Assembly (NCBI GenBank): GCA_950295325.1 | Contig: OX485803.1 | Span: forward strand, 30,566,001 to 30,630,000 | Direction: 5' to 3' | Length of the DNA: 64,000 nucleotides | Source: Polytrichum commune | Lineage: Eukaryota > Streptophyta > Polytrichopsida > Polytrichales > Polytrichaceae | Shown: positions 3,601-62,559 of the stretch, one piece after another | How positions within the stretch are numbered: position 1 is the stretch's first letter | Layout of the letters: each line of letters starts with the position of its first letter | The notes under the pieces: model-generated | Databases searched by the model: none | Told to the model about the DNA's origin: nothing | The model's input: only the letters and a program-made list of their open reading frames with translations | Made by a program: the position numbers and the translations under genes

Positions 3601-4594
3601 GTCTGCATAAAACTTAAAAAGATCAATTTCTGGAAAGATCAATAGTTCTTGGGAACATTCTGAGAAGGGTCTCATAGTGAAGAATAGATAAAACTCCTAC
3701 AGGTTAGATTATGTCTGTAGTGGTCTCTGTAGAATAGAGTTCTTGTGAACTTTATAACATAGCTTAATGGATGAGAGGATGTTAAAGAACTGGTCCCTGA
3801 GGAGAGGTACAGATTTGTAGATAGTTCCCACGAAGGCTTAGAAAGGAATCTAAAAAATCTGATGTAGGTACAATGAAGGTTTCAGATGCTTAATAAATAA
3901 AACTTTCTCATGTTGTACAGGAGAGGAGAAAGCAGATCTGAGAGTGCCAAAGTGGTACAAAAATCAGTTGGAGAAGAAAGCGGGTCGATGGGAGGACTTG
4001 CAACCCTCTGATGGGAAGGCTGAAGTGCTACAGATAGATTTCGATGCGGCCCCAACGCCACATAGAAGCTTTTCAACTTATGATGGTTCAATGCCACACA
4101 TGTCCTCTGAGGATCCCAAAGAAGATGAAGTTTTGAATTGGCAAGAAAATCCACCTCGAGATACACATGCATCAGAATATCAAGGAAGGAGTGGACATTT
4201 TTTGCCACCTGCAACAGGTTATGATGAACCTCCTAGTAATGGTGTTCGCACAAATGAGATGCATAACAGAGGTTATGGTGGACCAGGCTGGGAAAGGTCT
4301 ACTGGAATGCCCCATGTTTGCCCTTCCAGTCTTGGTGGAAATGGAGGTTTTCAAACAAACAGGCACGTATATCCTTACCAGAACGTGTACAATTTACCTC
4401 CGAGCCATACTTATTATCCATATCCCCACAATTATGTGGCTCCCAGACACCCCTCGAGGATGATACAAGACGGTTTGTATAATTATGGTCCTCTTCCTCA
4501 ACACACCAACCAACTGTTGTATACTAATGTGGTGCCTCCTTCACCAGGCTGGGGAGGACCTCCACCGGTCTGGCATATTGACAATTGTTTGTAG
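660..4594 (+). CDS. EDM2: EDM2-like PHD/methyltransferase-like protein, 3' part
   Basis: Eight exons can be joined in phase: 660-701, 832-984, 1206-1277, 1465-1574, 1704-1758, 2187-2603, 2846-3437 and 3921-4594, giving 704 residues and a TAG stop. All introns have GT-AG ends. The signature is the Arabidopsis EDM2 C-terminal half: WYIDDGDM, then ADFCCGANDFS (methyltransferase motif I-like), NFHFEQRDW, IIGLNPPFG (the NPPF catalytic-type motif of N6-adenine methyltransferases), SFYLPGSVD and APPLYLWSR. The last two exons are low-complexity, rich in G, P, Y and N. In Arabidopsis EDM2 is a nuclear protein that reads histone marks on intronic heterochromatin and controls poly(A) site choice. The PHD-finger half is not visible, so this is the C-terminal half of a protein usually about 1,300 residues long. 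The last intron and exon are duplicated at 21336-22352. Confidence 0.88.
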
Positions 4595-5216
4595 AGCTTA
4601 TTGTTCACGCTCGATTGAGGTGACAGTCTCCCTGGTTGCACATGTGCACAGATTTTTGAGTTACTTTGGTCCAAGTGGTTTCAATTTGTTTATATTGTAT
4701 GATATTCTGCAGAGAACATCGATGTGCTTCCATCTGTCCCTGCTAATTTGGAGGCATATGGAGATTTTAATCTGTTGGAGTCATTTTCAACGATTGAGAG
4801 TACTGTGTTGAGTATTCACCTGTGTCAAATTAAATTTCCATGATTTCTTTTGCAATGAAAGTAATGGAAAGATGTCCCATATATACATAGAATCCACAAT
4901 GTGGCTGTGTAATAAGGTATGTGGTCCTTGAGTGTAACCCCCAGGTTTTTTCGCTTGTTTCAGTAGGTTAGCAAATGTCACAACAAACGTTGATTGTCAA
5001 AACCGAGGTCCAAGGCACTCGGTTGGTTGTGGACATCCACCTTTTTGCTGATCCTAAGCCTCACTTTTTGTTGTTGCCATACACAATCAACTCCACCCGT
5101 GTTTACTCTGCACATGCAATTAATTGGTGGAAACTTGACCATGTTAAGGTTTGTTGACTATTTATATCAAATGATGCAGACTAGACTAATTCATGATCTT
5201 TGAAGTTCATTCCAGT
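4595..5216. other. EDM2 3' flank, duplicated downstream
   Basis: This is the 3' UTR and downstream sequence of the EDM2-like gene. It matches 22,353-22,880 at high similarity. Short open frames starting with MSQQTLIVKTEVQG (4975) and its counterpart at 22734 arise from this shared sequence and have no recognisable family. Near 5120 the two copies part: unit A continues for about 100 bases to the hAT insertion, while unit B holds about 19 kb before homology resumes at about 42,110. Confidence 0.6.
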
Positions 5217-5393
5217 GTCGAAGCCAGGGTTCGGGAGATTTTTGAGCTCAACCAGCTAAAATCCTTCCCTTCATAATTTCTACCGGTTTTTTTAGGATTC
5301 GATCGGTTGCAAACTTGTTGTCATTAATTTGGATCGGCCAATATCCTATATTTTCTTTCAAGTGCCGGTTAATATCCTCTTCATTGTAATGAC

Positions 5394-5764
5394 TGTTAAG
5401 ATAGCCATTTAGCTAAGCAACCAGGTGTTAACTACATCTAGGAGTAGAACAGTAATAGGGGTCCAGGGTATTAGCCTGGATACCCGCCTGAACAATAGTC
5501 TATAATCAGTACAGTTAGTGGGTTAACCTGGACATGAGTACCACAGACCATAGCTTCAGCTGGCCATTGCCGGGTATCTACCAGTACAGTATGAAGTAGA
5601 CAATGTGCCAGTATACGGTGCAGCTAGGTTGTTGACACCTGGCCCTTATACGTTAAGGCCATATGTTTGTTATATATACCCCTTATTCTGTCATTAAGGG
5701 TAGTTAATTCATCGAAGTATTTATGCACCTAAACTCTCACTAGCAACCTGTCTTACTTCCAACA
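5394..5764 (+). repeat. 5' LTR of copia element
   Basis: 371 bases, starting tgttaagatagcc and ending cttccaaca. It matches 12716-13090. It lacks four bases (gtct) present in the 3' LTR near its end. A possible TATA-like stretch, tatatatacc, lies at about 5672-5681. Confidence 0.93.
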
Positions 5765-5784
5765 CGTTATTAGCACGCTCCTGG
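5765..5784 (+). other. Putative primer binding site
   Basis: The bases straight after the 5' LTR read cgttattagcacgctcc. This resembles the internal initiator-tRNA-Met half-molecule site used by some copia elements more than the usual TGGTATCAGAGC form. The assignment rests on position and partial resemblance only. Confidence 0.4.
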
Positions 5785-6192
5785 CATATTAGTTTTCTTC
5801 ATAGTCTTGCTACTCCTGTGCATCCTCTTATTTGATATACATCTAGATGCTATACTCTGTATACACTTTATTCTAGTGAGGAAAAACGAACGATCACATG
5901 AGAGAATTCTGTAGATAGTTTTGCACCATATTCACAGATATTCTACCACACACTTCTTCACTATCCTGTTGCACATCGGCTTATGTTTTCTGTTTATCTC
6001 ACATATACTGTTATGCTCCACAGATTTCTTGAGAGTTAGTAATCACAGAAACAAAGTGCTGCCAAAATTTTTCACACTGTTCCACTAACGTCTGCTGTTT
6101 ATGTTTATACTTGCTGATTGTATACTAACATACCTACTGATGTTGTGATTTACTCTGGTCTGTCCTAACCAACATACTGATCATCCTTGTAA

Positions 6193-6410
6193 ATATATAT
6201 ATATATATATATATATATAATCTTGCTAACGGACTGTATCTGATCCTAACAGTGGTATTTTGTTCAATACTAACCTTTTTATAATATATGTATACACGTA
6301 TCTATATATATATTATTGCTGTTCTTATATATATATAATATATATACATACTAACATACTTTTTTTTTGAAACAACTAACACTTATTGATATATATATAT
6401 ATATATATAT
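6193..6410. repeat. (AT)n microsatellites in copia leader
   Basis: Several alternating AT runs (about 6193-6220, 6302-6352 and 6389-6415) lie in the untranslated leader between the 5' LTR and gag. The leader (5765-6665) holds nothing else I recognise. Confidence 0.85.
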
Positions 6411-6665
6411 ATATATTGACACAGATTGTACTCTGTTTTTCTGTCATACTAACATCTCTGTTTATATATACATATACTATATATACGTATGCTGTTATGT
6501 TTACCTAACTAACTCGTGTATACAGAATATAAGGGATATACTCCTCAGTATATCTTCAATATCTGTCTATACTTCTCTGTACGTGTTTAATATCTGTTTG
6601 TACTAACTAATATATTTGTGATATATCTTGTATTACTCTACATACTGTAAATATATCTTGTCTAT

Positions 6666-7835
6666 ATGGCTAAAAGGCCACCTGTAATAAAGGCCCTGTC
6701 CACACAACCTACGTTTATTGAGAGCAGAATGCAATCTCTAATGTTTGCTCCTTTAAACGCTGATGGGTCAAACTTTTTAGAGTGGGTTAATGACGCTAAG
6801 ACAGTACTAAGCACAGACGATTTAGCTAGGACTCTTACTATACAACAAACTTCTACTTCTGGTGCTCCTCCACAACCGATACTTCCTGCAATGCGATGGC
6901 AGGCCTTGTTACAACTCCGAAGACATCTGGATCATTCTCTACGCCTGCAATACTTACAGATTGAGGATCCAGCCGAACTCTGGGCACTTTTGCATGCTCG
7001 GTTTTATCATCAACATACTCTATTTTTACCACAGGCTAGATCAGACTGGATTAACTTAAGAGTTTTAGATTTTCCAGATTTTGCTACATTCAATTCTGAA
7101 CTTCACCGAATTACAGCACAACTGCGCCTGTGTGGGGAGACAATATCGGAGGTTGAATTGATAGAGAAGACTCTATCTACTTTTCCCCCTGTCACTTCAA
7201 TTTTATCCCAACAATACCGTAATATGAAATTTAAGAAGCACGCTAATATGATGTCTAGTTTACTTTTGGCAGAAAAACACCATCAGCTTCTCTTGAGGAA
7301 TGCTGACTCACGTCCAACTCGGGAGATACATAACACTACAGCTGCACCTGTTGATTACTCCCGAACCTACTCTATTGGTGGACCTGTAACTGTTGCTGCT
7401 GCCGGGATGAGGGGTCATGCTGCTGCTGCCTACAATACTACCACCCAACATGCTGCTGGAGCTGCTGACTGGAGGGGTCCTGTTGGAGCTGCTGGTTTTA
7501 GAGACCTTGCTGGAGTAGCCGAACAGTATGCAGAAGTTCATGCTGCAGAGGCATCCAGGAGACCTCCAAGAGGTTCTTTTCGCAGACCCCACCCTAAACC
7601 GCAGAGAGCGATGCAAAGAGGGAATCAGTATAGACCTAGACTTCCACCAATACCCTTCCCAAACAAACCTGCTAAGGGTAACTGTCATAAATGTGGACGC
7701 AAAGGTCATTTTGCGAAAGAATGTAGAGCTCCTCCCTACCTGATCAATATGTATAAGAAATTCCAACAGTTACGAATTCAACCCCGTCAAAATTACAACT
7801 TCCAAACTGAAAAAATCCTCATCCTCTACCCATGA
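6666..7835 (+). CDS. gag: copia Gag polyprotein
   Basis: This is an open frame of 389 residues starting MAKRPPVIKALSTQ. The N-terminal two thirds is the helical UBN2-type Gag domain: LNADGSNFLEWV near residues 32-43, with LWALLHARF and LRLCGETISEVE further on. A region rich in alanine, glycine and arginine follows, then a CCHC zinc knuckle, CHKCGRKGHFAKEC, at 7683-7724, which binds RNA. The frame ends just after an A-run near 7810, and the protease frame lies at +1. That is either a single-base lesion or a programmed shift; I favour a lesion because the rest of pol is also damaged. Gag forms the cytoplasmic particle. Confidence 0.9.
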   Translation: MAKRPPVIKALSTQPTFIESRMQSLMFAPLNADGSNFLEWVNDAKTVLSTDDLARTLTIQQTSTSGAPPQPILPAMRWQALLQLRRHLDHSLRLQYLQIEDPAELWALLHARFYHQHTLFLPQARSDWINLRVLDFPDFATFNSELHRITAQLRLCGETISEVELIEKTLSTFPPVTSILSQQYRNMKFKKHANMMSSLLLAEKHHQLLLRNADSRPTREIHNTTAAPVDYSRTYSIGGPVTVAAAGMRGHAAAAYNTTTQHAAGAADWRGPVGAAGFRDLAGVAEQYAEVHAAEASRRPPRGSFRRPHPKPQRAMQRGNQYRPRLPPIPFPNKPAKGNCHKCGRKGHFAKECRAPPYLINMYKKFQQLRIQPRQNYNFQTEKILILYP

Positions 7836-7991
7836 TATTGAGAGTTTTATGACTATCTATGAGAAGCAAGCATCGGACCCGGATGTAGCTCTCCTAGACA
7901 GTGCATCTACTCATACAATATTGACCAACCCTAAATTCTTCCATTTCATTGAAAATGAGAAGTCCTGGCAACATTGTAAGCTTATCACAAT

Positions 7992-9300
7992 CTCGGGGGG
8001 GGGGCACTCCCTTGTATATTTTGCATACACCTGCGATAATGACCTATTAAAATGGGGGCTATTTACCTATGAGAAAGGATTATAAGGGATGCTAATTTTT
8101 GAAATAATGGTAAATTGTTGTGATTATTTGCACCCTATTGGTAATTATAAATTCTTGGATGGTTGATTTTATGGTACCCTATATTACTTATATGTATTTT
8201 TTCCCTTGATTTCCCTCATTCCTTAAAGTGTATGATACAGTAGAATTCTTGTTAGAAGCACATGTACAGAGTCAGAGAAACAAACATTTACTAGGGTTTA
8301 GGGTTCAGGGTCACACTGAAGTCCGGGCAAAGCAAAACACTAAGCAATAACAACAAAAGATTGCAATTACATGTCATTAAGCAACACGAGCCAACGAATA
8401 AAAGTTGTGTTGGATAACACAGTTAGAAACCTTGAGGTCTTAGGGAACAGGCCAGCCACATGTGTCTCAAAGTCACATTTACAAGGTTTGCAGAATCCCT
8501 ACAATTGATGCCTTGATCTTCCAATCCTACACATTGGAGGAAAATCCCACGCCATGCAAGCAAAATCCACCTAAACTAGCTAGGCTACCATTTACACATG
8601 TGGGAGATATGAGGGTACTCGAACTAAATTGACTACTACAGATTTCAAGGTATACTAATGATCATTCAGCCCTTTTTTCAAATTATATCTCCACATGTGT
8701 GAGATAGTACAAATTTAGCAGGTTTTATTTTTTATTTGAAATGAACTCATTCAATGAATTTGCATCTACCTCATCTAAGGTGTAGATTTTGCTAGTTGAT
8801 TCATACAATAGAGACACAGTTGAGATAATAGCATCCACATCAACCCACACACAACCACTCTCAACATACTTATATTTGTTGAGACCCGGCTGTTTTTTGA
8901 ACCAATGGAGGTAAGCCATAGCAGTTGGGAAGAGCGTTTCTCTATTTCCGTTCTGGACTACACGTTTCATCAAGTCAATGGGTTGCCAACAATTGCCCCA
9001 CTTAGTACCAACCTTCACCCTTATCTTTTGAACCCTTCCTCTATAGAACATGCCATATTTTGGTGGCAAAGTATTTAATTTTTGAAACTATCGCTTTTTC
9101 TCCATGCTATTTTATATGTACCACTTAGGTAATTTAATCATGTTTTGTCAAATGCTATATTACATATAATCATGTTTCACAATCCCAAAGCACCCTATAC
9201 TACATCTAATAATTTACAAATTTTACGCCAAATTTTTATACAAGACCCTATATTTTATTGCACGTAGTTCCTACGTTTTTCGCCAGTGCCCCCCCCCGAG
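7992..9300. mobile_element. DNA transposon with 8-bp TSD and oligo-G termini
   Basis: A 1,309-bp insertion within the copia protease. Its ends are inverted: CTC, ten G, CACT on the left; AGTG, nine C, GAG on the right. It is flanked by an exact 8-bp duplication, atcacaat, at 7984-7991 and 9301-9308. The copia protease reading frame is the same on both sides, which fixes the ends. Eight-base duplications are typical of hAT (and P) elements, but the G-rich terminus is not a usual hAT end. Inside are AT-rich subterminal repeats (accctatattac on the left, caccctatactac on the right) and one small minus-strand frame. No transposase is visible, so the element is non-autonomous. Confidence 0.85.
8725..9069 (-). 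CDS. Unrecognised small ORF inside the DNA transposon
   Basis: A minus-strand open frame of up to 114 codons. The first ATG is at residue 7 (MFYRGRVQKIRVKVGTKWG). It is the longest frame in the 1.3-kb element and has a protein-like composition with several Trp, Tyr and charged residues. I do not recognise the family. It may be a captured exon fragment or chance. Confidence 0.2.
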   Translation of the reverse strand: MPPKYGMFYRGRVQKIRVKVGTKWGNCWQPIDLMKRVVQNGNRETLFPTAMAYLHWFKKQPGLNKYKYVESGCVWVDVDAIISTVSLLYESTSKIYTLDEVDANSLNEFISNKK

Positions 9301-12300
9301 ATCACAATGGCCGGAAGCCGAAATATGAGATTTCGGGAGGGCCAGGCAACGGTAGTCTTGCCCGGGGGTTTCCCCCTCATTTGCGCGAATGCAATGTACG
9401 CTCCAGATGCGCCTCGTAGCCTGATCAGCTACAAGGATATGAGAGCGAGGAAGATCCACGTTTCCACTGCGATGGAAAATGATGAAGAGGTTCTGGAGCT
9501 CAGGCAAGGGCAGGAGATCCTTGCCACCGCAAAAGCGAGAGACGACGGCCTGTATAAGATTGTCATAAAACCCTTAACATGTAGCCCTATCTCTCTGATA
9601 GATGAGGAAAAAGTTTGTATGGCTGCTTGGACTGGAGACCCTGAAGCAAAACGCCACAACCTGGCATAGGGAGTATCTTTAGATACTATAGCTAAGCCTG
9701 ATTTATGGCATATGAGGTTAGGACATCCGGGAACCACATTATTTCGCCGGATGTTTTCTTTAATAACAGGCCATAACCTGTTGACAGCCGATGCTGAGAA
9801 AACCCATGACTGTGTAGCATGCATTAAGGGAAAATTTATTAAGAGACCATCTAATTGGATTCTACCCAAAGAACTTCCCCCTCCCCTTTTCAGAATTCAT
9901 GGGGATATTTGTGGGCCAATTAATCTACCATCTGGCATATTTAGATATTATTTTGTGCTTGTGTATGCCTCGGGGAGTCACCTAGAAGTCTCACTCCTTC
10001 CAACCAGAAACATGGTCTTCCCTAAGCTGCTTGCTATCGTACTTAGGTACCGGAATCATTTTCCAAAAAGTCTAATAAAATACCTAAGAATGGATAATGC
10101 CCAGGAATTCCGCTCGCATGCATTTGACGACTACTGTACAGCCATGAGAATAACACTCACCTATATAGTACCCTACGAGCACAACCAAAATGGACTGGCA
10201 TAAGCCTTTATTAAAAAGATTCAGCTCATAACTAGACCCCTGCTACTGCATGCAAATTTACCTTCTGAGTTATGGGGCCATGCAGTCTTACATGCAGCTG
10301 CATTGTTAAGGTTAAGACCAACCTTACTAAATATTCAAACCCCATACAAGCTGGTTGCAAGGAGGCCACCGAATGTGGCACACATTCGAATTTTTGGTTG
10401 TCAGGCCTGGGTCCCTGTCACTGAACCTAAAAGACACACAATCGAGCCTCATCGTCGAGAAGGGATTTACATTGGGTTCGACTCTACATCCATCATCAGA
10501 TATCTAGATCCTATTACAGGAGCCTTACTTAGAGCCAAATTTGTGAATTGCAGATTTATAGAATCTGTATTTCTAGCCTTACAGAAAATTCCTAACCAGC
10601 CACCTGAAAATCTTAACTTCCTAGCTCCTGAAACCTTGACAATGAACCTTGGTCCTCCAACATCCTTACCCAATACAGAAGTTCTTAAAGTTTTGAACCT
10701 TAAATCCTTGGCTGAGAATACCCCAGATGGTTTCTCATATGAAACCAGAATAATAAGACACCATTTTCCTGGTACCGGGAATACCCTACCCAAAGGACAC
10801 CTTGAAAACCCACCCATTATCCATCATCCAACCAAAAGACCCAAATCCCACTTTACAGCTGAAGACGTCCAAGACCTACATTTGAAGACTGAAGACATCC
10901 AAGATAAGACTGAAGACATCCAAGATAAGACTGAAGACAGGGATATTTACTTTGGGGAAACATCTGAACCTGAAATCCTTACATTAGACCCGAACCTGGA
11001 TTCTAACCCAGCCACCCTTAAACAGGCCATGTCCAGACCCGACTGACCACAATGGCAACAAGCAATTAAAACTGAATACACATCTCTCCGCAAACACAAA
11101 GTCTTTGGTGAAATTTCACTTGACCTTGAACAACCACATGTAGGTCACAAACTTATATTCACTAGAAAGTTTGATGCTAAGGGTAATGTGATTAAGTACA
11201 AGGTCAGACTCGTAGCTCAGGAATTCACACAAAGACCTGGAATTGACTATGAGCACACTTATAGCCCAATAATGGATACTATTTCTTTCAGATACTTATT
11301 AGCCTTGACAGTCCATATGTCTTTACATATCTATTTGCTAGATGTTGTTACAGCCTATCTACATGGTACATTAGATTCTGTTTTGTATCTAGCACCTCCA
11401 CCTGGATTTCTGAATCAAGTTCCTAATCCAAAGCCAGGCAGATTTGCAGGATTAAGAATTTATAAAGCCTTATATGGCCTGAAACAGTCAGGCCGCACCT
11501 GGTACCACCATTTATGCAATTTTCTAATTGCACAAGGTTTTATATATAACCCTAATTTACCCTGCATTTTTACTCTTACTAAAGATTTTGATTTTGTTAT
11601 CCTGGCTGTATATTTTGACGATTTAAACATTATTGGTAAATCAGAACTATGTCAATATCCGCAAAATATTTTAACCCATAAATTTGACATGAAATTCTTA
11701 GGACCTACCTCCTTCTGCCTAGGACTTCAGGTTCATCATGTACCAAATGAAGGCATACTTTTACATCAGGAGGCATATGTGAATAAAATTCTTAAAGAAT
11801 TTCAGATGGATAAGGCCAATCCATTAGCCACTCCAATGATTGGACGCAGTAAGACTAATGAAGATCCATATCAACCTCGTGAGGAGGAGGAGGAGGAGGA
11901 GATTGTAGATAAATCTAAGTACCTCACAACGGTTGGGATTTTTTACATATTTAACAACTCATACTAGGCCTGATATAGCATTTGCGATTAGCATATTAGC
12001 CAGGCATAGTCAGAATCCCACAATCAGACATTGGAATGATGTTAAGCATCTTATGAGATACCTTCACGGGACTTATGATCTTGGCTTGTTTTACAAAAGA
12101 ACTAACAATCCTGAAATTTCAGGTTTTGCAGACTCTGGTTTCAGGACTGATATGGCTGCAGGAAAGTCACAGACTGGTTATATGTTTCTGAAAAATGGTG
12201 CTCCTATTTCTTGGAAATCCACAAAGCAAACAATAACTGCTACATCGACTAACCACGTAGAGCTTCTGGCATTCCATGAAGCTGCAAGGGAATGCGTCTG

Positions 12301-12706
12301 GCTACGAACTATGGAGCAGATTCTGGTGAAGCAATGCAGGTTGCAGATCAAGGATTAGCCAACAGTTATCTTCGAGAATAATGTTGCCTGCATCAGACAA
12401 ATGACTTCTAGTTTCATCAAGGCCGATCGCACAAAGCACATCAGTCCACACATATTTACATATAGTTAGGACTTAATAGAAAAGGGCCAGCTAGAAATTA
12501 GGAAAGTACAATCTGAACATAACTTAGCAGATATGTTAACTAAGGCTCTACCAGCCTACAAACTTAGAAAATTAATAGAAGTAGCTGGAATGAAGACACT
12601 CCACTCACTGACCTCTCCTGGCTGTTAATACTATTTTCTTTATCCAAGGTTTTATCCCAAACTGGGTTTTACTTGGAAATTTTTTTAACGAGGTTAACAC
12701 CAGGTT

Positions 12707-12715
12707 GAGGAGGAG
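12707..12715 (+). other. Polypurine tract of copia element
   Basis: The purine run gaggaggag lies directly before the 3' LTR, where plus-strand DNA synthesis is primed in LTR retrotransposons. Confidence 0.75.
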
Positions 12716-13090
12716 TGTTAAGATAGCCATTTAGCTAAGCAACCAGGTGTTAACTACATCTAGGAGTAGAACAGTAATAGGGGTCTAGGGTATTAGCCTG
12801 GATACCCGCCTGAACAATAGTCTGTAATTTGTACAGTTAGTGGGCTAACCTGGACATGAGTACCACAGACCATAGCTTCAGCCGGCCATTGCCGGGTATC
12901 TACCAGTACAGTATGAAGTAGACAATGTGCCAGTATACGGTGCAGCTAGGTTGCTGACACCTGGCCTTTATACCTTAAGGCCATATGTTTGTTATATATA
13001 CCCCTTATTCTACCATTAAGGGCAGTTAATTCATTGAAGTATTTATGCACCTAAACTCTGTCTCACTAGCAACCTGACTTACTTCCAACA
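12716..13090 (+). repeat. 3' LTR of copia element
   Basis: 375 bases matching 5394-5764, with the same TGTT and AACA ends. The 5-bp duplication atgac follows. Confidence 0.93.
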
Positions 13091-13948
13091 ATGACAACCG
13101 GCCAAAAACTCGGGCATTGATAAGTAAGTTGGTTTTCCAATTATATCTACAAACAACATACACCATTCAACAACAATGTCCAAAGAACATATTAGCATAC
13201 AACAATAATATGTAATGATATCAACATCCAACAAGAATGATCAACAATTTATCCGTAGCAGGAGTTGAACCTAAAATAAGCCATCAACCGGTTGATGGCC
13301 ATGGATAAACTCTTCTATCATACCTAGGTCTTAAAACCTCATATTAGATTTGAGGCCACAACATGATAAAAGAGTAACCTAACATACCATACTATATACA
13401 AAAATGAAATTCACCAACTGTTAGAGTCAAAATCAACAATATCATCTTCACCTTCAAGAGAAAAACGCCCTAAAAGGTATCTTTGTGGATGTGAAAAAAC
13501 CATCTAAACTTTGTAGAGTTCCTTCATAAAGCTATGGCTTCCATTAGTACATTATCAAGATCACCACAAAGATCTTCCATAGACACACTCATAATACATT
13601 CTAAACGCTAGCCGTCAACAATGAAATGCAATAATGAAGCAAAAGCATCGTTAAGTTTCCTATGACCTACACGGCTGAGAACCTCCCTCATTCAATATCC
13701 GTCCATACCCTCGGGAGACCAACCAATATCCGCCTATACCCTTGGGAGACCCAACTCATTTCCGCCATTTTTTGAGCCTGAGGGGTTAAATTTCCTACAT
13801 TATCTCATATTGGTCGGTTGATTTCCTATACTCTTCATATTTAACTCGGTTATACGGCCGAAATCTCCCCCAAAAAATCGGTAATTTTGCAATTTCACTC
13901 GGTTAACTTACAACTAGCTGCCGGATCTCCCCGATCATTGGTCGAAGC

Positions 13949-16900
13949 AACCCAAAATCATAATCTCCGGACGGCATACTATTTCAAGGTTTTATGTTGG
14001 ATGAATGAGATACGGTTGTATACAACAATCCCCTCTCTTTCTCTTGATTATTGATCCCTTTTCACAACCATCCCAACAACATCAACCACCACCACCACCA
14101 CCACCACCGAATCTCCTAATGTCACATTCACTTCTCATACATGTTCTGCAGATCCAGCCAAAGAATGTTCCCTAGTGGATCATTGAAGCAGGTGAACTAT
14201 AAGAATGTGACACCGAGTGTGATGTAGTCAGCGTTCTCTATATTGTAGCACGTGACCCTTCATTTCAAATTGGAAAGCTAGGAATGTTGTACATTGATAC
14301 TTATCTGAGAAAAAAGTGTTGGTTTTATAAGCCCACATGCCATTCCCATGGCATAATATGTTGGTATAAACTAGGCAGTCCGAAGAGCGATCCCAAAACA
14401 AAGAGTCCAAGATCCTTAGAGCTCTACCTGAACATTACTTTATTGCATCCCCTTCTTCTTCTTCTTTTGGAAACTATCCTTTATGAGCACTACGTACGCA
14501 TCCCTTTTCCGAGCCAAACAGATTCAGAAAAAAAAAGGGATATTTTAATATCAAGGAAATCCATGTGAGTCATGGCAAGTGAAATAAAGGGGCAACCATA
14601 CCCTGACAACACGGCTTACGTGCAAATGATAATTGCACACAACCCCGTTTTCAATCGGATATTTGCAGTGACAAACTTGCTTGGAAGTCAATTGCTTTAC
14701 ATCGAGTATAGACAACTATCCACATGTTTGTTCAAGCTCACCTTCATGTGTGGGTTTCTTCTCGTGGTTGGTGAGAGGGATTTAGTGCATATGTATGTAC
14801 CTCTCATTTATACAATAAAAAAAGCCCAAAATTAACATGTAGACATGAGGCTAGCTTTGGAAGTCGATTTGATGCCGGAATTGACTTCAAAGACTCTAGA
14901 TTTGTCGAGTCACAATTGTTCAGAATGAATCAACCACAAACATTTAAGGGGTCAAATTTTTATGTTGGATGTATGAGAAGTGTGTTAATTGGAGGTTTGT
15001 GACACACAATGGGGGAGATCTTGAAGGTGAAAAAATTGAATGTTTTTGTAGAGCTTGGGGATTGTTATTTCTAGCCAAATTAACCCTAATTTGGGGGTAG
15101 AGATCATGAACAAGTTAAGTAAGTTTAAATTGAGATGTATCACCTGTAAACAAATAAGGGGCATGTCCAGAGGGTGGCTTGAGTCTTCATTGGAAACCTA
15201 AATGATGTGCATGGGTCACTATGAAATTAAAACCCTTATATATGAGAGGGTTGTATAGAAGATTAAATGTATATGTACTAGTGGCATGCTAGAAAATGAA
15301 CATGCATTTATATTAAGATTTTCATTTTCTATGATAAATGCCTCCACTCAGTATACAAATAAGAAGTCATGCATTTAAATAAGCCTACATTATATGTAAA
15401 ATCTACTTTCGCTTTCCAAATGAGAAAGTCATTGAGCCATTTTTCATCCAAGGCATGTAACTCAACAATTGCATCAAAACCCGGGGGATTGACTCTTCTT
15501 TGGAAACTTAAATGACATGCACGGGTCACTATGAAATTAAACCCCCCTATATATGAGAAGTTTATAGAGAAAACAACAAGTGTATATGCACTAACGGCAT
15601 GCTAGAAATGAACTCATGTATTTATACTTAGTTTTTTTCAATTCAATGTGATAAAAGCCTCTACTACATATACAAAATCTAAACCATGGATTAAATAGGC
15701 TTTTGTTACATATAGAATCCACTCTCACTCTCCAATGAGAAAGTTATTGAATACATTTTCATCCTTAGCATACACTAACTCAACGATTACATCAAACAAA
15801 CAAAGATGAGAGAATACTAATTTAGCCAAGATCAAGAGAGCAAAACTCAAGGGAGCCCATGAGTGCTTCAACAACCTCATGGGTAAAAAACAAGTACTCC
15901 AATGCATACCCTAACAAGAATGGATAGGGTAGTCATTGAGGACGATTACCATATGCCAACAATCAATGATAAAGTGTATTAGATGAAACTAACACATCTA
16001 TTGTCAAAAATTTCTCTAAACCTTATAATCCCATTCTACACATATACCTTTACTTCAAAACTATTGATAGCCTTTTTAAATGTACACACTAGAGAAAATT
16101 TATACCTCTCCCTTATGTGTACTATGTACACTAATGCCTCAAATAATACCCCTTCTTACACTCACGTTAGTTTGTATGTGATATGAAGAGTCCCCCCACA
16201 CCATATGGGGTGGGGGGCATGTAACTTACATCCCCCTCGATAGATGATGTGAGCAAAATTCTAAGTAAGATCATATGCAACGTTACCAGTCCCTCTCAAC
16301 CCATGGTTTAGCACATGGTGAAGTGAATCAACGATCAATAGGAGATTTTTCACAATACATACCACAAATGTTGACTACTATTGTAGAGCCCATGGTTTAT
16401 CAATTCAAACCAAGTTAACTTGAAACAAGGGTTGGATTCCTTAAATCACTTAACTGACTTAATATTGCATAATTAAGCCACAAAAATAAGAGGGACGAGT
16501 TTTTAGTGGGCCCACCTTTGGTAGGGGATGTGAACAAAATTCTAAGTATGATCATATCTCACAATCTCCTCTAGGCCTATGGTTTTGCCACATGCTTTAA
16601 ACGAATCATCGACCAATAGAAGCTAGACAACCACTTACTAGACGAATTTGGAGTCTATCACCCCAATTTAGAAGTTGATTTGGCTCCAAACACCAACCCC
16701 CCCCCCCCCCCCCATTCCACAATAACTATCAACATCTTCACCCTTCCCCTCTCCTAAGGTAGATGGGTTTTAAGTGGCTCGGTTTCTTAAACGGACCCCT
16801 CGATTTGATTAGTATGTGGTTTGGTGAGGATCAAAGAGCAAACATTATAAAAGACACGTGTTTGAAAGAGATAGGACTACATCTTCAAATGCTATTAACT

Positions 16901-34879: not shown

Positions 34880-34912
<33 letters not shown>

Positions 34913-42079: not shown

Positions 42080-42326
42080 TTGAGCATACCTCTCATCCGT
42101 CCAACAGAAAACCTCGACCATGTATAGGTTTGTCAACGATCCATATATATCAAATGACTCAGACCACACTGTTTATTGATCTTTGACATTCATCCCGGTG
42201 TCGAATCAACCCAACATCGTAACCTTCGGCTGACATACTATTTCAAGGCTTTTATGTTGGATGAATGAGATATGCTCGTATACAACAATCCCCCCTCTCT
42301 CTCTCTCCATTATTGATTCCTTTTAA

Positions 42327-49840: not shown

Positions 49841-50140
49841 GTGTTTGCATTTATAACTCGTCGGTCATACTTTGCTTCAAAACCATGAATTCCTGCTTCA
49901 TGAATTCAGCCGAATCTTTTTTGGATGTGTATCCAAGATACTATATCTTGCGGTGACAAGAAGTTCGTGACGCTTCCTTTTGAGAGACATCTTCGAGTCT
50001 TCCTTCGTCACAACTTGCGAGCACTGGTTCCCCCACGAATCATGCCAAGATGTCCGCGTTGTTGAATTTGTCACTTGGTCTTTATTTTCCGCTATTTTGT
50101 GGAAACTAGACAAGTGTCGTTGGTTCAGGTGTTCAGTGAC

Positions 50141-51151
50141 ACAGTAGATACCATGTAGTAGCCGTCGCTATACCTCTCTTTCCGCACAAGAATGTTCGCT
50201 TCATTGTGTGCTCTTGAATGTCCTCCTCAATTATATTTTTAGTAACATTCGTGCTAATGCGTCTCTTTGGCCAAACTTCAGTGAGCGCTGTTGTTGCTAA
50301 CAATTATCGTTCGCTGGTGTGCAAGAGCAATAATGTTATGAATTTGTCAGTATTGTAGTCTCTATTTCAGACTAGCTCTACACAGCATTGCTGCTCTTGT
50401 GATTCTTCAAATCTTAGCTGAGGTCGCATTTATTCTGAACGTGTCTAACTGTCATGCTGATACTGCTAGAGTTATTTAGGCGCATGTATCATCACCAAAA
50501 CCACCTAAAATGTTACAGTGAAGGTTTTCCCTGTACGTCGAAGTTTGTTCATCCTGTCCACATTGGCATGTTATACTTTTTTGTATCCAAACTATATAAT
50601 GCGATATTCACTAAGCAGAATCTTTAGCAGCTTGCTAAAACCATGTAAGGAGGCTTCTCTAACATGTCTTGCAGTCCTCAAACCTTCAATTATTCTAACC
50701 TGTGATATTTTTGATGCAGCGGCACTTGATTTCAAGAATTACAAAGACGGCATTGACTTGTGCACTAGCTGTTTTTATTCGCAGCGAGTATTCAGCTACT
50801 TAGTTGTCTCTCCGTCCACTGTCCGCTCGTTTACAATTCTAGGCGCAAGAGTTTGGAAAATTATTTAGAACTGATAGTTGCGCTTCAACCATCTCATTTC
50901 AGTAAGCAGCTTCCGTCATAGAGCAGAATCCGTCTCCCAAAAAAAAACCCATCTTCAAATTATTGAGCTTCCTGAATCAGCGCTTGGCGTCTCTTTGGTA
51001 TATATCAGGATTTCTTGGACCTAGTTGTATTGGTGATTATCTGAGTCAATTTCTTACTCTCAACCAACCGGAGAGCACCATGTTCTGATGCAATTGTAAA
51101 GCGCGTGATAGACTTGCTGTAAGCTTGTCCCTCATTGCATAAACTTTTACT
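50141..51151 (+). promoter_or_regulatory. ABCB 5' flank, unit B
   Basis: The kilobase upstream of the intact ABCB start codon. It is homologous to 17,266-18,281. Position makes it the promoter and 5' leader, but I see no certain core element. A 43-bp segment at 50563-50605 is inverted relative to unit A. Confidence 0.5.
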
Positions 51152-54100
51152 ATGGATCATGTAAGGAAGTCAAGGTCGCTCCGAATTTTTGCTGAGGATT
51201 CTAAATCTGAGGTACAACTTAGCACGTCAAGAAGCGCAAGACACCACGCGGAGCATCCGGCACATGATGAGCACCGGGATGATGTACAGCCAATAGAGAA
51301 TGCTCAGGGCGTCGGTGGTCCAGGGAGGTTTTTTGACGTGGAAGTAAGCGGCGCTTTGAATGCGGTTGGCTCATTTCGAAGTCAGTCTCAGCGTGTCTAT
51401 GTATCAGAACTGCCTGACTCTTTACAAGAGAAAATTGTGAGAGATAGTGTCGATGAGGACCATAGTCGTCAAGGAGGAAACTTAGACGAAAACGTGGAAA
51501 AGGCTCACAAGAAGAATGTTAAAGCTCACAAGAAGAAGAAGGCCTCCATGGCGAGGCAATCAGTGCCGTACTTGGATCTTTTCAAGTACGCCGATGGACT
51601 GGATTATTTTCTAATGTTTTTGGGCACATCGTTTGCTATTCTGGACGGCTTCATGTGGCCAACCATTGCATTCGTTCAAAGCCATGTCCTCAACAAATTT
51701 GCTAGTCTGGCACTCACTGACCCCGAACTCGCTTATACGAAAGTCTGTCAGGTACTTTCTCTTAAAGCCACATTTCGAAGAGTGCTTGTGCAATGTGTTG
51801 CTAGGAACAAGATGGACCTCAAAAATTTGAGTAGACACCGTACAGCAGGGAGCTATTTTGTTAATTTGATGTATGGAGTTGTGCATGGGTTGCTATATGG
51901 TATATAATAAAAAGGGAAGAGGCATAAAGGTTTCGAAGTAGACAAGGGTATCGGTGAGTAAGTAGGACCTCAATTTTCATGCAGGGAACAGGAATAGTGT
52001 AATTAAGTTTATAATGTCACGGAACTGGCACCTAGATGCCTCAATACCTGCTCCACCATAGCCCATAAGCTCGGTTATGCAGGTATAAAGTTCTCCTTGT
52101 GTTCATCGTCAAAATATGAAGGCTTACATTCCTCTGGTCAAAAGTAATAAGAATTCATTTTCTAGGTCTCTAAAATTACAACCGTTTGTGTATGTGGCCT
52201 AACTCGTTTCTGTGTGTTGGTTATTCTTGCAGTACGCGCTAATAATTGTTTATGTCGCCATTGTCTCAATGGTAGCATCATATTTTGGTATGGGTCTGCG
52301 CATTCTAAGCTTGCCAATTTGCATCCATCTTGTGGATCGACACAATATATCATTTATTTCTATCTTTGATTTCTAGTTTTCTTGATTTCATCAGTCTTTT
52401 TCAACTTTTCGGTAATCTATGACTTCTGCAGAGAGTGAACAACTTGTTTGAATCAGAGCAGTGTTTTTAATTGCTTTCTCAAATCTCGAAGTGCAGAGGT
52501 TTGGTGTTGGATGTATACGGGGGAGCGGCAAGCAGGACGTATTCGAGCAAAGTATGTGCGTGCAATTCTCCGGCAAGATGTTGGATATTTTGATACTCAC
52601 AGCAGCAACATGGCCATTGTTGTAGACAGCGTTTCCAGTGACACCTTGCTGATCCAAGATGCTATTAGTGAAAAGGTATGGTAATGACATTACTTTCTTT
52701 CTGCCTGAGTCTAGGCTTAAAATTCCCACTGAGAAGCAGATTACCGTTTCTGAACATAATGTACTCCAATGGATTGCATATGGCCAGCACTTAGACATAG
52801 AACATACTTATTTGAACTTTCCCCGCGAGGAGGTCCACATAAGAGTGAGTACATGTGATGGTATCAGTAACATGAATCTTTCTGCCCTTTCCACAGGTCG
52901 GCAACACAGTGCAGAATGTGGCTTTATTAGTAGGCGGGGTGGTAGTCGGATTGACCCTCTGTTGGCGTCTCGCTCTCGCCATTCTCCCTTTCCTCCCATT
53001 CTTGTTACTCCCAGGGCTTATGTATGGGCGAGCACTTTTAAGCCTCGCAATTCAAATACAGGTTGCCTATGGAAAGGCCGGGGTACTAGCAGAGCAAGCC
53101 ATTTCATCTGTAAGGACAGTATACTCCTTTGTAGGGGAAAAGCGGACTCTCGACACTTTTTCCGAATTCTTGGAGTCGACAGTGAAATTGGGGAAGAAGC
53201 AGGGGTTGGCTAAAGGACTTGCCATCGGGCTTACTGCTCAAACCTTTTTAATCTGGGCATTTGTATGCTGGTATGGGACTTATCAAATCGTACACGGATA
53301 CTCAAAGGGGAGTTCGGTGGTATTTAGTGCGTTCATCATCCTCTATGCTGGCCTGTAAGCCCACAACACCATTTTTCTTCTCAAAATCTGGCTGTATGTA
53401 TGATGTCACATGTCACCTTTTGCTACCCCGTAAGAATGTGAAACTCAAGGTATTCAATGCACTTTCCCTTTCTTTGGGAAAAGAGAAACGGAAAAAGGCG
53501 TCAAACAGTGGTGAGTGCATTTGAAGCCTCTTTCCATTTCTCTTTGATACGTTTCGAACTTTGAAGCCGTTTCCAGTTACAAAGGCTGACGTGATAGTTA
53601 TGAAACTACTTCAATTGAATCTGATGGGGCCTATCTTGAGAAGTCTAGTGTTTTATGATAGCTTGTATCAACCATACTGATTTCCTACATGTTTTTCCAT
53701 CTCTTGGTGGTAATTGGCAGAGGAGTGGGAAGCATAACACCAAACATTAAGTGCTTCCTGGAAGGCAGGGTGGCAGCATACCGTATCTTCAAAATGATCG
53801 ACAGGATACCTGCAATTGATGTGGAGGATTTAAATGGAGAAATACTTGAGAAAGTACATGGAAATTTGGAATTACGCAATATTGACTTTGCTTATCCTTC
53901 TAGGATGGAAGCTCCAATATTCCAAAACTTCAGCTTACAGATTCCTGCAGGTGATTATAACTCCCTTACCTCGCATTAGCTTCATTCCAAGGTAATAGTA
54001 CGGGGTTCTAGAGATAATTTTAGATTGGACCTTAGCGGGAATTAAACTTATTACTGTTAATTTTTATAGTTATGACTGCCGCCTTTGGAATGGTATGATC

Positions 54101-57100
54101 ACACTTTCCACACCTTTGAGAGTGTACTAAATCCATCATTGGAAAGCAAGTCACAGAAAGATCTTGCCAAGACGTCCACAGAATCACATTCTGACCGATT
54201 GTGTTCGATACTGTAGGTAAGACCATAGCCTTGGTGGGGAGCAGTGGAAGTGGAAAATCTACTGTGGTCGCATTACTTGAGCGTTTCTATGACCCACTAG
54301 CCGGCCAAGTATTATTTGATGGAGTTGATATCAAGGATCTTCAGCTGAAATGGTTACGAAGCCAGATTGGTTTAGTAAGCCAAGAGCCAGCTCTATTCGC
54401 AACGTCCATAGCGGAGAACATAAAGTATGGCAAAGGTTCAGCCACCTTCGAGGAGATCGTTGAAGCAGCCAAATCGGCAAATGCACACACATTCATCTCG
54501 CAGTTACCAAGTGGGTATGATACTCAGGTGGGAAAATTTTATTCTATCTTGTGGTTTGGAAGGGTGTAGGTGTATTGTACATTTGTTACAGAGTGGTGTT
54601 CGCCGTACACATATGAGTCAGACACAAAAGATTGTAACACTTACCGAGGTGTCCAAATATATTACTGTATTCCTGAATACTGTGTAAATTATGCAACGAT
54701 GCAGGTGGGTGAAAGGGGAGTGCAGATGTCAGGAGGCCAAAAGCAGCGCATCGCAATTGCCCGAACCATCATAAAAAGGCCTCCTATACTTCTCCTCGAC
54801 GAGGCAACCAGTGCTCTCGATACAGAGTCTGAACGAGTAGTTCAACAAGCTCTTGAGAAGGCTGCACTTGGACGAACTACTATAGTAGTCGCCCATAGAC
54901 TCTCGACAATTCGTAATGCTGACATAATCGCCGTGTTACAGTATGGCAAGGTAGTCGAGATGGGAAGCCACGAGGATTTATTGAATATAGGCGAGATGGG
55001 AGTATACTATGCAATGATTAACATGCAAACTCGTAGACAGGTACATTTCCCTGAACGACTAAATCTTATGAGCATTCTCCTGACATGTGTGTGACGGTAA
55101 TAACTGGAATTGGCCAAGTTCAGATATTCTATTGTCTCCCTACTACATTTTGAGCCTCTGTGACTGACGTTGTGTGTGAATATATTTGGTGTTTATTTAC
55201 AGGAAGAAGAAGCGGGAGCAGTGGTTGCTGACATTGAGCCTGAGGGCCCTCTAGAGCACGGAGAAGCTGTAAGAGCCAGCTATGGACTCGGTCATTCGAA
55301 GAAGTCCAGCTCCGGAAAGAGTCGGGATAGCTTGGAAGCCCAAAATGCACAACACTTTGACCTTAAAAATATCGCCACCCCGGAAGATATTACTCAATTC
55401 AAAAGCCCTTCATTCACACGCATGTTATGGTTAAACAAGCCAGAATGGAAAGAAGGACTGCTGGGGCTTCTTGGAGCTATTGGTTTTGGATTTACCAACC
55501 CATTCTACGCTTATGTTATCGCACTGATAACAGTAGAGTACTATGCAAACCAACCCACAGCTCATTTATGGCACCAGGTTGGAAAGTTTGCAGGAATTCT
55601 AGTTGCACTGGCGTTTTTCTTCCTTGGAACGAATGTGCTTCAGCACTACAATTTCGCAGCTGCAGGAGAGAAGTTGACAAAACGCATCCGAGAGCGAATG
55701 TTGGGGTCTCTGCTGCAGTTTGAGTTGGGCTGGTTCGATCGTGACGAAAATTCAAGCGGTTCCGTATGCTCTCGTCTTTCAACTGATGCGAATATGGTAA
55801 CGGGAATCTTCAGCCTGTTAACCTCTTTTTTGAAGGCCTACATTTTCTCACATGTAGTATGTGTCACAAGGTTGTGTAGTTCATGTTAACCAAATGACCA
55901 CTTCATGCCAAAGTTATGATCAGAAATTTATTGACGTCTACTTGTTGTCAGGACTAACAATGTATGGGTAACCAGATCATATAGTGGATTTATTAATGTC
56001 ACTCTAATAACTCATTTCTCTACTTGTAGGATTTTTTTTTATGATCATTATAATTTATCAATGATAAATTTTAGTACTGATTAAGAATGATGCTCAATTA
56101 TCCTTGCCTTGTGTAGGTGAGGTCACTCATTGGCGACCGAATCTCGTTGATCACAGGATCGCTAAGTATGGTTGCTATCAGCTGGATTATCTGCTTTTAT
56201 GTCTCGTGGCGTTATGGATTGCTTGTGATATTTCTCCATCCTCTTATAATTTTCTGCTATTACATCAAAAAGGTGAGTATTGCTTGTTTCTGGATACTCT
56301 TGTCCCCCGAGTCCAGTGATACGTTAGTCTCATGTTAATTTAATCTTAAAAGTATTGGTCCATGGTATTTTTATATTCCAAAGCAATTACGACGATGTGA
56401 ATGTCACAGTAGGTACGTCTTATATGTCCCAGTATTTCTTCTTCTCATTTGGTGCACTTCATTCGCATCACGACATGCTTCTCATCTGTGATCAGGTTTT
56501 GAATAGCTTGAGGAGTAGTTCTGCAGTTTTGGTTTGTCAGTTATAGTGTAGTTTGATGACAAAGCCCATGACTGAAATACATCCTCAATAGGCTAACGGC
56601 TTCACTTGCATGCACACAGGCACTCTTGATGACATTTGCCAAAAAAACTGCACTTGCACAAGCAGAGGCAAGTCAGGTGGCCAGCGAGGGAGTTGCCCAA
56701 CACCGGACAGTTACCGCTTTCTCAGCACAAGAAAAATTACAAGCACTATTCGAGAAAAAACTCGAAGTTCCAAGAAGGCAAATGCTACGGCGCTCCCAAA
56801 TAGCCGGAGTTACGTTAGGATTGGCAAATTTCTGCTCCTTTTCTTCGATGGCTTTGGTGTACTGGTTTGGAGGTCTACTGAGCAAGAAGGGTTTGTCCGA
56901 TTTCTCACAGTTTTTCCGTGTCTTCTTGGTGTTCGTGAATACAAGCCGCACTATTGGAGAGGCCGGTGCATTGACCCCAGATATCGCTAAGGCATCAATT
57001 GCAATCAACTCTGTCTTCCATATTCTTGACAGGAAGACTAAGATTGATTCTGATGTTAAAGATGCAGAGATTGTGAAAAAGGTGGATGGTAGCATTGAGC

Positions 57101-58672
57101 TTAAAAATGTATATTTCGCTTACCCATCGCGACCAGATGTCATGGTTTTCAAAGGATTTTCTTTGAAGATCCGAGCGGGACAAACAGCAGCCATGGTGGG
57201 TCAAAGCGGTTCGGGGAAGTCCACCATAATTGGGTTGATAGAGCGCTTTTATGACCCTCTACAGGGAAAAGTGTACATAGACGGAAAGGACTTGAGGAAG
57301 GTGAATCTGCGATCAATGAGACATCATATCGGTCTGGTGAATCAAGAGCCTACCTTATTTGCGATGTCCATTCGAGAAAACATAGCTTATGGGAAGGAGG
57401 GAGCAACAGAAAGTGAGGTCATAGAGGCTGCGCGTGCTGCCAATGCTCACAACTTCATCAGGTATGTGTTCCTTCTCCTTCTGAAGGGTCATTTACAGCA
57501 CAAAGGTGGTTGTGGTTGTGGTTGTGGACCAACATCAATCACAACTACAGGTTTTTTTTCCTTAGTACTTGTCTTGTGTGAGTCCTTGTCCTTGTGGTTG
57601 ATGGTGGGGTTGGTCTTCTGAATTGCAATCTATCATTGTTGAGGTTTTAGACTCAAAGAAGAAATTGAAGTGACTATTATCATTCTTGGTCTTGGAACTT
57701 TCTCTCCTTGTCGTTGAAGCTCTCTAGTGATGCCACATGAGCATGAAGAACCCCCAACGGTGGTTAACCATGCGGAATTGTGGGGTCGATGGGGTAGGGC
57801 ATGGTTAGCATTTATTATGCCTTTTCTATGGAATTATAACCAAAATAATTCATAAAACCACAACCAAGACCGCCCTTTGCGTAAATGACCCTTGAGAAAA
57901 GAAGTACTCTTGAGGAACGCTTTGTGAAAATAGGAAGTTGAGGTGACACAAAATCTCGGTCTTGGCATTTCAGATGAGGAGGTTGGAATCAAGAGACTTA
58001 TACAGAGTATCGCTGACTCGGTTATGTGTTTAGAAGTCTGGAATATTGAACGATATTGTGCTGAAAACTCTAGCTCTCTGGTGCTTGCAGTTCTCTTCCA
58101 GATGGATATTCCACTTTTGCTGGTGACCGCGGTTTACAGCTATCAGGGGGGCAGAAGCAGCGGATTGCAATTGCACGCGCAATCCTGAAGAATCCCAAGA
58201 TTTTGTTGTTAGACGAAGCAACTAGTGCACTGGACGCAGAGTCAGAAAAAGTGGTGCAAGATGCACTGAATGACATGATGGTGGGCAGGACGACAATCAT
58301 TGTTGCTCATCGGTAAGAACAACTTGCCATCCATCTTGGTTACTTGAACCAAATTGTTTGCTCACTCAGTAACTTCACTTCTTTTCACCGTGTTTAGAGT
58401 TTTAGGGCACCCGTAGATGGAAACAAACTCCCTGTAATGCGCAAGGGCAAACAGTACTCATAATGAATAACATTCTTATCTTCATGTGTGAAATATCTGA
58501 ACGGGTTCTTGCATATTGTACACACAGGTTATCCACGATCCGAAAGGCAGAATCGATAGCAGTTTTGCAAGATGGTGTTATCCTCGAGCAAGGTAAACAC
58601 AATGAGCTTCTCGCAAAGGGCGAAGGTGGAGCCTACTACTCCCTTGTCCAATCCCAAGCTGGCGCACACTAA
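51152..58672 (+). CDS. ABCB-type full ABC transporter (ABCB15-like clade)
   Basis: Twelve exons join in phase with GT-AG introns: 51152-51751, 52233-52287, 52497-52675, 52897-53354, 53721-53950, 54217-54527, 54705-55040, 55203-55796, 56117-56272, 56620-57461, 58091-58312 and 58528-58672; 1375 residues. Order: charged His/Lys-rich N-terminus (1-140), membrane domain 1, nucleotide-binding domain 1 (Walker [10 protein letters not shown] near 515-523, signature MSGGQ near 619, [11 protein letters not shown]), linker, membrane domain 2, nucleotide-binding domain 2 (GQSGSGKST near 1167-1175, LSGGQ near 1271, H-loop VAHRLST). All catalytic motifs are present. Family members are ATP-driven exporters, mostly in the plasma membrane; the substrate cannot be read from sequence. 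[18 protein letters not shown] and the [10 protein letters not shown] region point to the ABCB15-22 group. The N-terminus is longer than usual. The ATG at 51152 is the first in frame. Confidence 0.92.
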
Positions 58673-60902
58673 GCGTTTCGACACTCCAAATGTAAGGCAG
58701 TGGATGCGCTCTCCGAACCATTTCTGGAGTCAAAAATCTTCACATCATCAACATGTTGGCATGTTCTCAGGCACATGCTTCTACAATCTCCAGTTGAAAT
58801 CTACAAGCTTTAAAGAGAATTTCTCGGACATCTTTCGGAGGGATTGCGTGTTGTGCAAGATCAAGTTTGGTTGCCCACCACCAACTCATTATCAGCAATC
58901 CCATTCCAGAGGCGGCTGTGAATCCTTCTCCATATCTCTCGGCTCTAGTGCACAAAACTCAAGAGAGTCGTTGTGGATTCTGTCCATCGCCGATGATAGA
59001 TCTGCCATGATATACCATACGATCACGAGTTTATCCTTACTCGATTGCAATCGATTATCCTGCCTGCCAACAAGAGACACTGTAACTTAAATTATTCAAA
59101 CATTTATCAAGCTAACTTACAACGCACATTTGGTTTTCACACACTGGCTGTAGGTTTTCCTAGAGGTGATTCATTTGGAGCAAAGCCTGCTTGACCAGCC
59201 AATTGATCAAACAAAAGTAATCTCCTTCCTGTCGAAAGAACTCCAATATGCAAATGTCAAGTTTCATCCTGCTTGAGTCTTGCCTTTCGCTCATACTTAG
59301 TGATATGAAGAGAATACATGGCTTGGACAGGGACTCTCTTGAAACAAACACAAAAATAGACAAACAATCAATGTGTGTCCGTAACCGGCACATGGTCGAT
59401 TTCAACAATCCGAATCATTCAGATAAAAGATCAATTCATGGAGATTTAAGGTCATGTCACTTTTGCTCTTAGAATGTAGTTAGGCACATTTTGTGATGCA
59501 GTTTCCCCTCTACTACTCTACTAGAGAGAAGTTATGTTTCCTATTTTTGAATGTAATATTGTTCACCCTCTTTAGTAAGACACGTTCGTTCACACAAGAA
59601 AGTGTCGTATTATCCAAATGTTGTATTCTTGAAAATATGACTTTTTAGTTTCGAATGTTGCACTATTGAGGTTTTACAAACCAATGGCCTCTTTCAATGT
59701 CAAAATGTTATTTTGTGTGCGTTCTGAAGATACATAAGTATGAAAGAGCATTTGTATTGAAGAATGCTCACATCGTTCCCCAAGGTTCCCCAATGCTGAC
59801 GACATTCCCAAAGGTTCCCCAATGTTAAAGATATTCCCCAAGGTTCACAATGTACCCCAAAGTTCCCATGAGTGTCCCAAAATACTATATAAACCTGGTA
59901 ATACTTGTGGGTCCCATGACTTATGCACATTAATTACTTGTATTATACAATAGCCCATGCCTAAAAAATGTTGTATTACAAGCATCGTACTCGAAGTATG
60001 CACATAAATTAATACTAGAAAATTTGGTTGACAGGAATTGCATTGTATACTCAAAGTGTCATATAATTGAGTGCCTTAACATGTAGAGTAGATTGGAGTA
60101 AGCAATCTCAAGTCTTTCTTCCAATTTGATCATGAAATTGATATTAGCCTCTATCTCACGAAGCCACTGCCCTCCGTCACTCTAGAGAATTAGCCTCTTT
60201 GTCACCATCTAAATATACTTTTAATCCCATAAGGCATTTGGCTTCCCGGACTTTAATATCTATTTCATTTCATGGAGAACCTCAATAGCCCTTTACAAGA
60301 AGTAAAACCCAACATTAACCAATAAAATATATTTTCAAAACATACACATTTTCAAAACGGAGCTGAGTGAGATTTTTTTTGAGGGGGGGGGGGGTGAGTT
60401 CTCCCTCAAAGTTATGTCCATATAATAGGTGTATTTTGTACCAGGCCATGGGAGGGACATATAGAAATTACTGAACTTATATGCAATAAAAAGTGTAACA
60501 TAATTGTGTCTTGCAATACGCATTTCAGAATCACAGAGAGATGGAGAGGCTTATTATTCAAACCTTCAAAGCAATGAACTCCCCAACAATGCTGCTCCAA
60601 TATCCAATAGACTTGGGAGCCCTGTATATCCTTGGTCCGCAATTACATACAAGTGGCCCAAAAAAATGTCTGTATAGATGCCAAGTAATCTGGAGGTACA
60701 TTTTCCACTTAAATAGTGATGTTGTGTATCATACCCAGTGCTTCCTGTCAGATGCGATTCCTAGTCCGATTCAACAAGTCAATGAACTTGATCACAAAGG
60801 AGATTATTGCTTGGTATCTGTAGAATGCCAGCTCGAACTGTGACCTGCAACTCATGTTCTGTTTAACTAGCAGAAACCTTGAGATAACCAACCACCTAGA
60901 AT
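58673..60902. other. ABCB 3' flank and intergenic region
   Basis: 59,264-59,790 matches the unit A flank 20,773-21,295. 59,776-59,882 is a degenerate minisatellite of roughly 30-base units built on gttccccaatg. From 59,900 the sequence is unique in this window. A G12 run lies at 60383-60394. I see no gene; the deaminase 3' UTR probably occupies the right edge. Confidence 0.55.

Positions 60903-62559
<1,657 letters not shown>

Follow-up and report, generated by a model that had tools for sequence, protein, structure and literature searches.

Breakpoint position and later gene loss in a tandem duplication of EDM2-like and ABCB sequence in Polytrichum commune

Background

When two neighbouring genes are spanned by a tandem duplication and a different complete gene is found in each copy, has each copy lost a gene by decay, or did the position of the breakpoints settle the matter when the duplication arose? 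This question is raised by a stretch of 64,000 nucleotides of Polytrichum commune (the window; contig OX485803.1 of assembly GCA_950295325.1, positions 30,566,001 to 30,630,000, forward strand), for which a preliminary description proposed reciprocal decay of two duplicated neighbours, an EDM2 gene and an ABCB gene. The tandem duplication is real and of an ordinary, known kind. What makes it of interest is that the order of its events can be read from the sequence: the position of a breakpoint, rather than subsequent decay, determines which neighbour each copy retains. No title among those listed in our literature searches describes the locus, and we make no claim that it is unpublished.

Results and discussion

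Two collinear units joined head to tail

Self-BLAST of the window (E up to 1e-10, matches of at least 100 bases reported) returned an ordered chain of plus-strand matches pairing 3628-21308 with 21337-59805, in which single blocks score up to 4055 bits; this search found no third copy of either unit, and the remaining matches are local repeats. The two units, A and B, are adjacent and lie head to tail in direct orientation, collinear but unequal, with one novel join (Table 1). Each contains, in the same order, the last intron and exon of an EDM2-like gene, a spacer, the 5' flank of an ABCB gene, the ABCB gene and its 3' flank. The chain and the fine alignment of the units bear out the earlier claim of two units in one order, and the join falls where it had been placed, at about 21,295-21,340; the bases 21307-21337 belong to neither aligned block.

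Table 1. Features of the duplicated locus (positions in the window)
Feature	Position	Counterpart in unit B	Strand	Remarks
Unit A, aligned part	3629-21306		+	Self-BLAST and fine alignment; with the join bases, unit A is 3629-21337
Unit B, probable full extent	21338-62711		+	Aligned part stops near 59803
Aligned block	3629-5124	21338-22883
Aligned block	5131-5222	42110-42205
Aligned block	13941-14062	42200-42324
Aligned block	14064-14677	42724-43370		Overlaps the next block in A
Aligned block	14275-16197	44471-46398
Aligned block	16369-16637	46881-47149
Aligned block	16634-17259	47648-48264
Aligned block	17260-18360	50137-51230
Aligned block	18362-20764	56352-58749
Aligned block	20766-21306	59270-59803
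Stretch absent from A		22884-42109		19.2 kb; gain in B or loss in A
Stretch absent from A		48265-50136		1.9 kb; gain in B or loss in A
Stretch absent from A		51231-56351		5.1 kb; deletion in A
Stretch absent from A		58750-59269		0.5 kb; gain in B or loss in A
Insertion only in A	5224-13940			GTCGAAG on both sides; single site GTCGAAT in B
Ty1/copia element nested in the insertion	5394-13090		+	Target repeat ATGAC; LTRs differ at 14 of 370 sites
EDM2-like gene, 3' part (methyltransferase-like stretch to proline-rich last exon)	832-4597		+	Open stretches and NPPF-type motif in translations
Left breakpoint of the copied block	3629	21338		Inside the EDM2-like last intron; similarity starts abruptly
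Lone EDM2-like last exon		21618-22352	+	244 codons, no stop
ABCB-B		51548-58672	+	12 coding exons, 1243 residues
ABCB-A remnant	17260-20687		+	Proximal 5' part, then exons 10-12 (18629-19470, 20107-20328, 20544-20687)
Deletion join (5.1 kb; exons 1-9 of ABCB-A lost)	18360-18362			AAG shared
Identity tract, candidate gene conversion	18471-19475	about 56461-57466	+	1005 aligned sites
Join bases, putative remnant of the right edge of A	21307-21337		+	31 bases; 27 of 31 match 62681-62711
Putative source of the join bases and right edge of the block		62681-62711	+
Guanosine-deaminase-like gene		60903-62559	-	Three coding exons: 62559-62269, 61701-61597, 61085-60903

The spacer is likewise collinear: its short aligned block (75% identity) stands directly before A 13941 = B 42200 once the 8.7-kb insertion is set aside, and with that insertion removed and its flanks joined, 231 of 277 sites agree with B. 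The insertion, an element of 1 kb in which a copia element is nested, is the sequence peculiar to A. Unit B holds the longer stretches listed in Table 1, and smaller pieces, without a counterpart in A; the polarity of the 5.1-kb difference is clear (a loss in A), since B has coding sequence there. Bases common to both sides were found at the joins of the 5.1-kb (AAG) and 0.5-kb (TCATC) differences and at the right edge (AT), and the 1.9-kb join has no clear shared bases. The overlap in A between blocks 14064-14677 and 14275-16197 arises because B holds two local copies there.

Edges of the copied block

The left breakpoint lies within a gene that is probably EDM2, the name given in the preliminary description. 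Read by eye, its translation contains an N6-adenine-methyltransferase-like stretch with an NPPF-type motif, followed by the proline-rich last exon; these stretches gave no Pfam match above cut-off and no PDB match, and the remainder of the gene, including the PHD region, lies to the left of the window. On the translated sequence the identity with EDM2 is likely, and the domain order of EDM2, as given in the part of PMC7529245 used here, is the order seen in the window. Just outside the breakpoint 56 of 100 aligned sites differ. As had been described, the 3' end of the gene is complete in unit A and a lone last exon stands in unit B; this exon is a partial gene duplicate, its homology ending at the within-gene breakpoint. 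Its first 113 codons (dN 0.050, dS 0.045, from small counts of 13 nonsynonymous and three synonymous changes) appear to carry no sign of constraint. We considered the open frame of the exon as proof of function and rejected it, dN being about equal to dS in this first part.

Of the span formerly given to the duplication, 3630-59790, the left end stands (at 3629), but the right end probably reflects a later shortening of A, the copied block having run to 62,711. This extension rests on one match of 31 bases: the join bases agree at 27 of 31 positions with 62681-62711, which has the same orientation and is next in order. Positions 62681-62711 lie upstream of a guanosine-deaminase-like gene, 122-152 bp from its start codon (ATG at 62559), and that gene would thus adjoin the right breakpoint. 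The highest score of 1,000 shuffled fillers over the entire window was 23/31; none of 1,615 sampled 31-mers of the window reached 24 against 59804-64000, and of 1,000 reversed window 31-mers compared with the entire window, two reached at least 26 and one at least 27 (that one 31). A copy of the deaminase gene was probably once present in A and later lost with about 2.9 kb. The join bases could instead be filler templated on 62681-62711 in the end joining of a block that ended near 59,803. Such copying at plant breaks is described in the part of PMC7935947 used here, and its outcome looks alike, but the co-orientation and order of the match are required of an edge remnant and not of filler, which we regard as unlikely while giving it serious weight. 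If the edge remnant is the correct reading and the block ended at 62,711, the deaminase copy in A would likewise have been cut from its own upstream region.

Origin of the duplication through recombination between repeats was rejected, the edges of the block sharing at most one or two bases.

Two sequence features near this edge are recorded for themselves. The deaminase-like exon 61701-61597 (minus strand) encodes PCPMS where the solved guanosine deaminase 7dbf has PCPMC; a likely zinc ligand is thus absent, and the gene may be inactive. A 29-base minisatellite (59776-59846) lies exactly at the end of the aligned part of unit B, beside the putative 2.9-kb deletion point.

An intact and a broken ABCB gene

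The claims that ABCB is whole in unit B and broken in unit A both hold. ABCB-B has a full open frame across its 12 exons, with no internal stop and with GT-AG borders at 11 of 11 introns; its residues 3-1239 align to residues 21-1248 of plant ABCB19 (8woi), and each half has Pfam matches to ABC_membrane and ABC_tran, the frame reading TMD1-NBD1-TMD2-NBD2 without interruption. If translation starts at the in-frame ATG at 51152, the protein would be 132 residues longer. In ABCB-A the 5' part passes directly from the counterpart of B 51230 to that of B 56352, so that exons 1-9 are absent; the copy also carries a frameshift (a one-base deletion) in its last exon and a stop shortly after an upstream in-frame ATG, a putative start. 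With introns 10 and 11 kept and its coding capacity destroyed, ABCB-A is by its sequence a non-processed pseudogene, similar to the plant tandem non-processed pseudogenes in the sections of PMC7935947 consulted here, which keep introns and have flanks homologous to the parent locus. The same sections report an excess of tandem copies among plant pseudogenes; unlike that survey, the present case concerns one locus, in which the deletion joins can be read and conversion is probable over one tract.

The remaining exons bear on the time of its death. Exons 11-12 up to the frameshift differ between A and B at two of 310 sites, both synonymous, compared with 44 of 920 in neighbouring noncoding sequence (Fisher P 0.0004; few sites lie outside the identity tract, and the rest of exon 12, beyond the frameshift, with two further, adjacent differences, is excluded). 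None of 233 nonsynonymous sites in these exons has changed (P about 0.004 were A free since the duplication), and since they show no amino-acid change, ABCB-A was probably functional over a large part of its history, and its death was probably late. We find it highly improbable that exons 10-12 of ABCB-A, whose splice sites are kept, are not simply dead and have been kept matched to ABCB-B through some effect on that whole gene, such as serving as its partner in conversion, yielding a regulatory transcript or encoding a short product that contains the second nucleotide-binding domain.

An identical tract around exon 10

Around exon 10, 1,005 consecutive aligned sites are identical in the two units, a run reached in none of 10,000 shuffles, although noncoding sites near the tract differ at 4.8% (the 44 of 920 above). 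Restricted to silent and noncoding sites, the identical run is 294, again reached in none of 10,000 shuffles (the longest shuffled run, 281, is just below it). The identity thus goes beyond what nearby silent sites predict, and this suggests recent gene conversion between A and B over exon 10. The identity of the exon could also have been preserved without conversion, by selection on both ABCB copies until very recently, a reading with which the lack of amino-acid changes in exons 11-12 agrees; however, none of 193 synonymous and none of 158 intron-9 sites within the tract has changed (P 8e-5 and 4e-4 at the neighbouring rate), and we consider selection alone improbable as an explanation. If the conversion tract is real, a date taken from exon 10, with its zero differences, would be far too recent when set against noncoding divergence of about 5-12%. 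The locus further suggests that a duplicate can remain under constraint, and trade sequence with its sister copy, before it dies.

An error of the assembler, affecting the join or the tract, is very unlikely: 1,005 identical sites amid 4.8% divergence are what a local copy error is expected to leave, and a single assembly was available, but hundreds of site differences, several large indels and unit-specific insertions with target repeats show that the two units are not one locus assembled twice.

The second part of the lone EDM2-like exon in B has three differences in 394 sites, with a clean run of 241 reached in two of 10,000 shuffles; it may be another conversion tract, to which selection on the A copy can contribute.

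Truncation at birth and the order of events

Since similarity starts inside the EDM2-like last intron, unit B, as the alignment reads, never received the rest of that gene, and its lone exon was cut off at birth rather than decayed. With the left break in this position, the first unit keeps the whole gene and the second carries a one-exon stub; ABCB, in the middle of the block, was the one gene that either unit could lose, and A is the unit that lost it. Reciprocal decay, in which both genes were duplicated whole and each unit then lost a different one, would leave a different complete gene in each unit, as is found, but is hardly tenable, given that the two genes were not both whole in both units at birth, that ABCB alone has decayed, that B has no EDM2-like trace upstream of the base matching 3629 (the sequence of unit A ends there instead) and that a deletion would have had to stop precisely at the boundary between the units.

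Copies truncated at birth form a described class among the structural classes of gene duplicates in the part of PMC3449122 used here, and as in the partial duplicates of that work an intron breakpoint has truncated the copy at birth; unlike them, a whole gene in the middle of the block died later, and the genes at both edges were cut. The capture of gene fragments beside whole genes is frequent in tandem duplications of D. yakuba, in the portion of PMC5460883 cited here, although those are young polymorphic variants of an insect, studied with expression data. We found no chimeric gene at this locus.

Our preferred history, a single duplication followed by later losses and insertions, has as a whole a probability of about 0.8. 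The block from 3629, in the EDM2-like last intron, to about 62711, just upstream of the deaminase-like gene, would have been copied once, head to tail, through end joining without homology, a step based on the collinearity of the units, the one novel join and the one or two bases, at most, that the breakpoints have in common. By this geometry the copying itself would have given B an EDM2-like stub and severed the deaminase copy of A from its upstream region, with ABCB copied whole. Selection would then have held the amino-acid sequence of ABCB-A over a large part of its history, and gene conversion with ABCB-B would have affected exon 10, before the copy died through two lesions that are both seen, the 5.1-kb deletion and the one-base frameshift, whose place in the order is putative. 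A further deletion of about 2.9 kb would have removed the deaminase copy from A, leaving 31 bases, and mobile elements would have entered the units separately.

Uneven divergence of the ABCB 5' flank

The 5' flank of ABCB (13941-17259 in A, 42200-48264 in B) shows about twice the divergence of the other noncoding parts of the units (355 of 2,894 sites, 12.3%, compared with 211 of 3,308, 6.4%; P 1e-15), a difference that one clock does not explain. CpG decay was rejected as its sole cause, given that non-CpG sites differ at 10.0-13.7% in the flank and at 2.1-6.0% in the other blocks. Hidden paralogy was also rejected: A 14275-14680 is closer to the second of the two local copies in B, and the pair looks orthologous. 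Part of the flank resembles an inverted stretch near 31 kb (60-66%), and the flank may be partly repeat-derived.

Mobile elements and repeats

The element nested in the A insertion is a Ty1/copia LTR retrotransposon, as its LTR pair, target-site repeat and domain order attest: zinc-knuckle, gag-pre-integrase and reverse-transcriptase matches are present, with the integrase before the reverse transcriptase (Pfam gag_pre-integrs and RVT_2 above cut-off; integrase core at E 0.0023, below its cut-off). Some 0.8 kb separate it from the stop codon of the EDM2-like gene, which lies upstream. A COPIA-R7 insertion is mentioned in connection with EDM2 in the part of PMC7529245 used here; a link to the present element is probably coincidence. 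No match to Rfam at gathering thresholds was found in the window, and ARAGORN returned nothing.

A 0.5-kb repeat with inverted ends around CACTTCACACA occurs in three copies about 85% alike (26266-26762 and 41572-42079 on the plus strand, 47144-47649 on the minus strand), the third of which interrupts the ABCB 5' flank in B and not in A. The 19.2-kb stretch found only in B contains a 1.4-kb foldback (32738-34120, 91% self-complementary), and a 145-base hairpin (42391-42535, 92% self-complementary) lies in a stretch of B without a counterpart in A.
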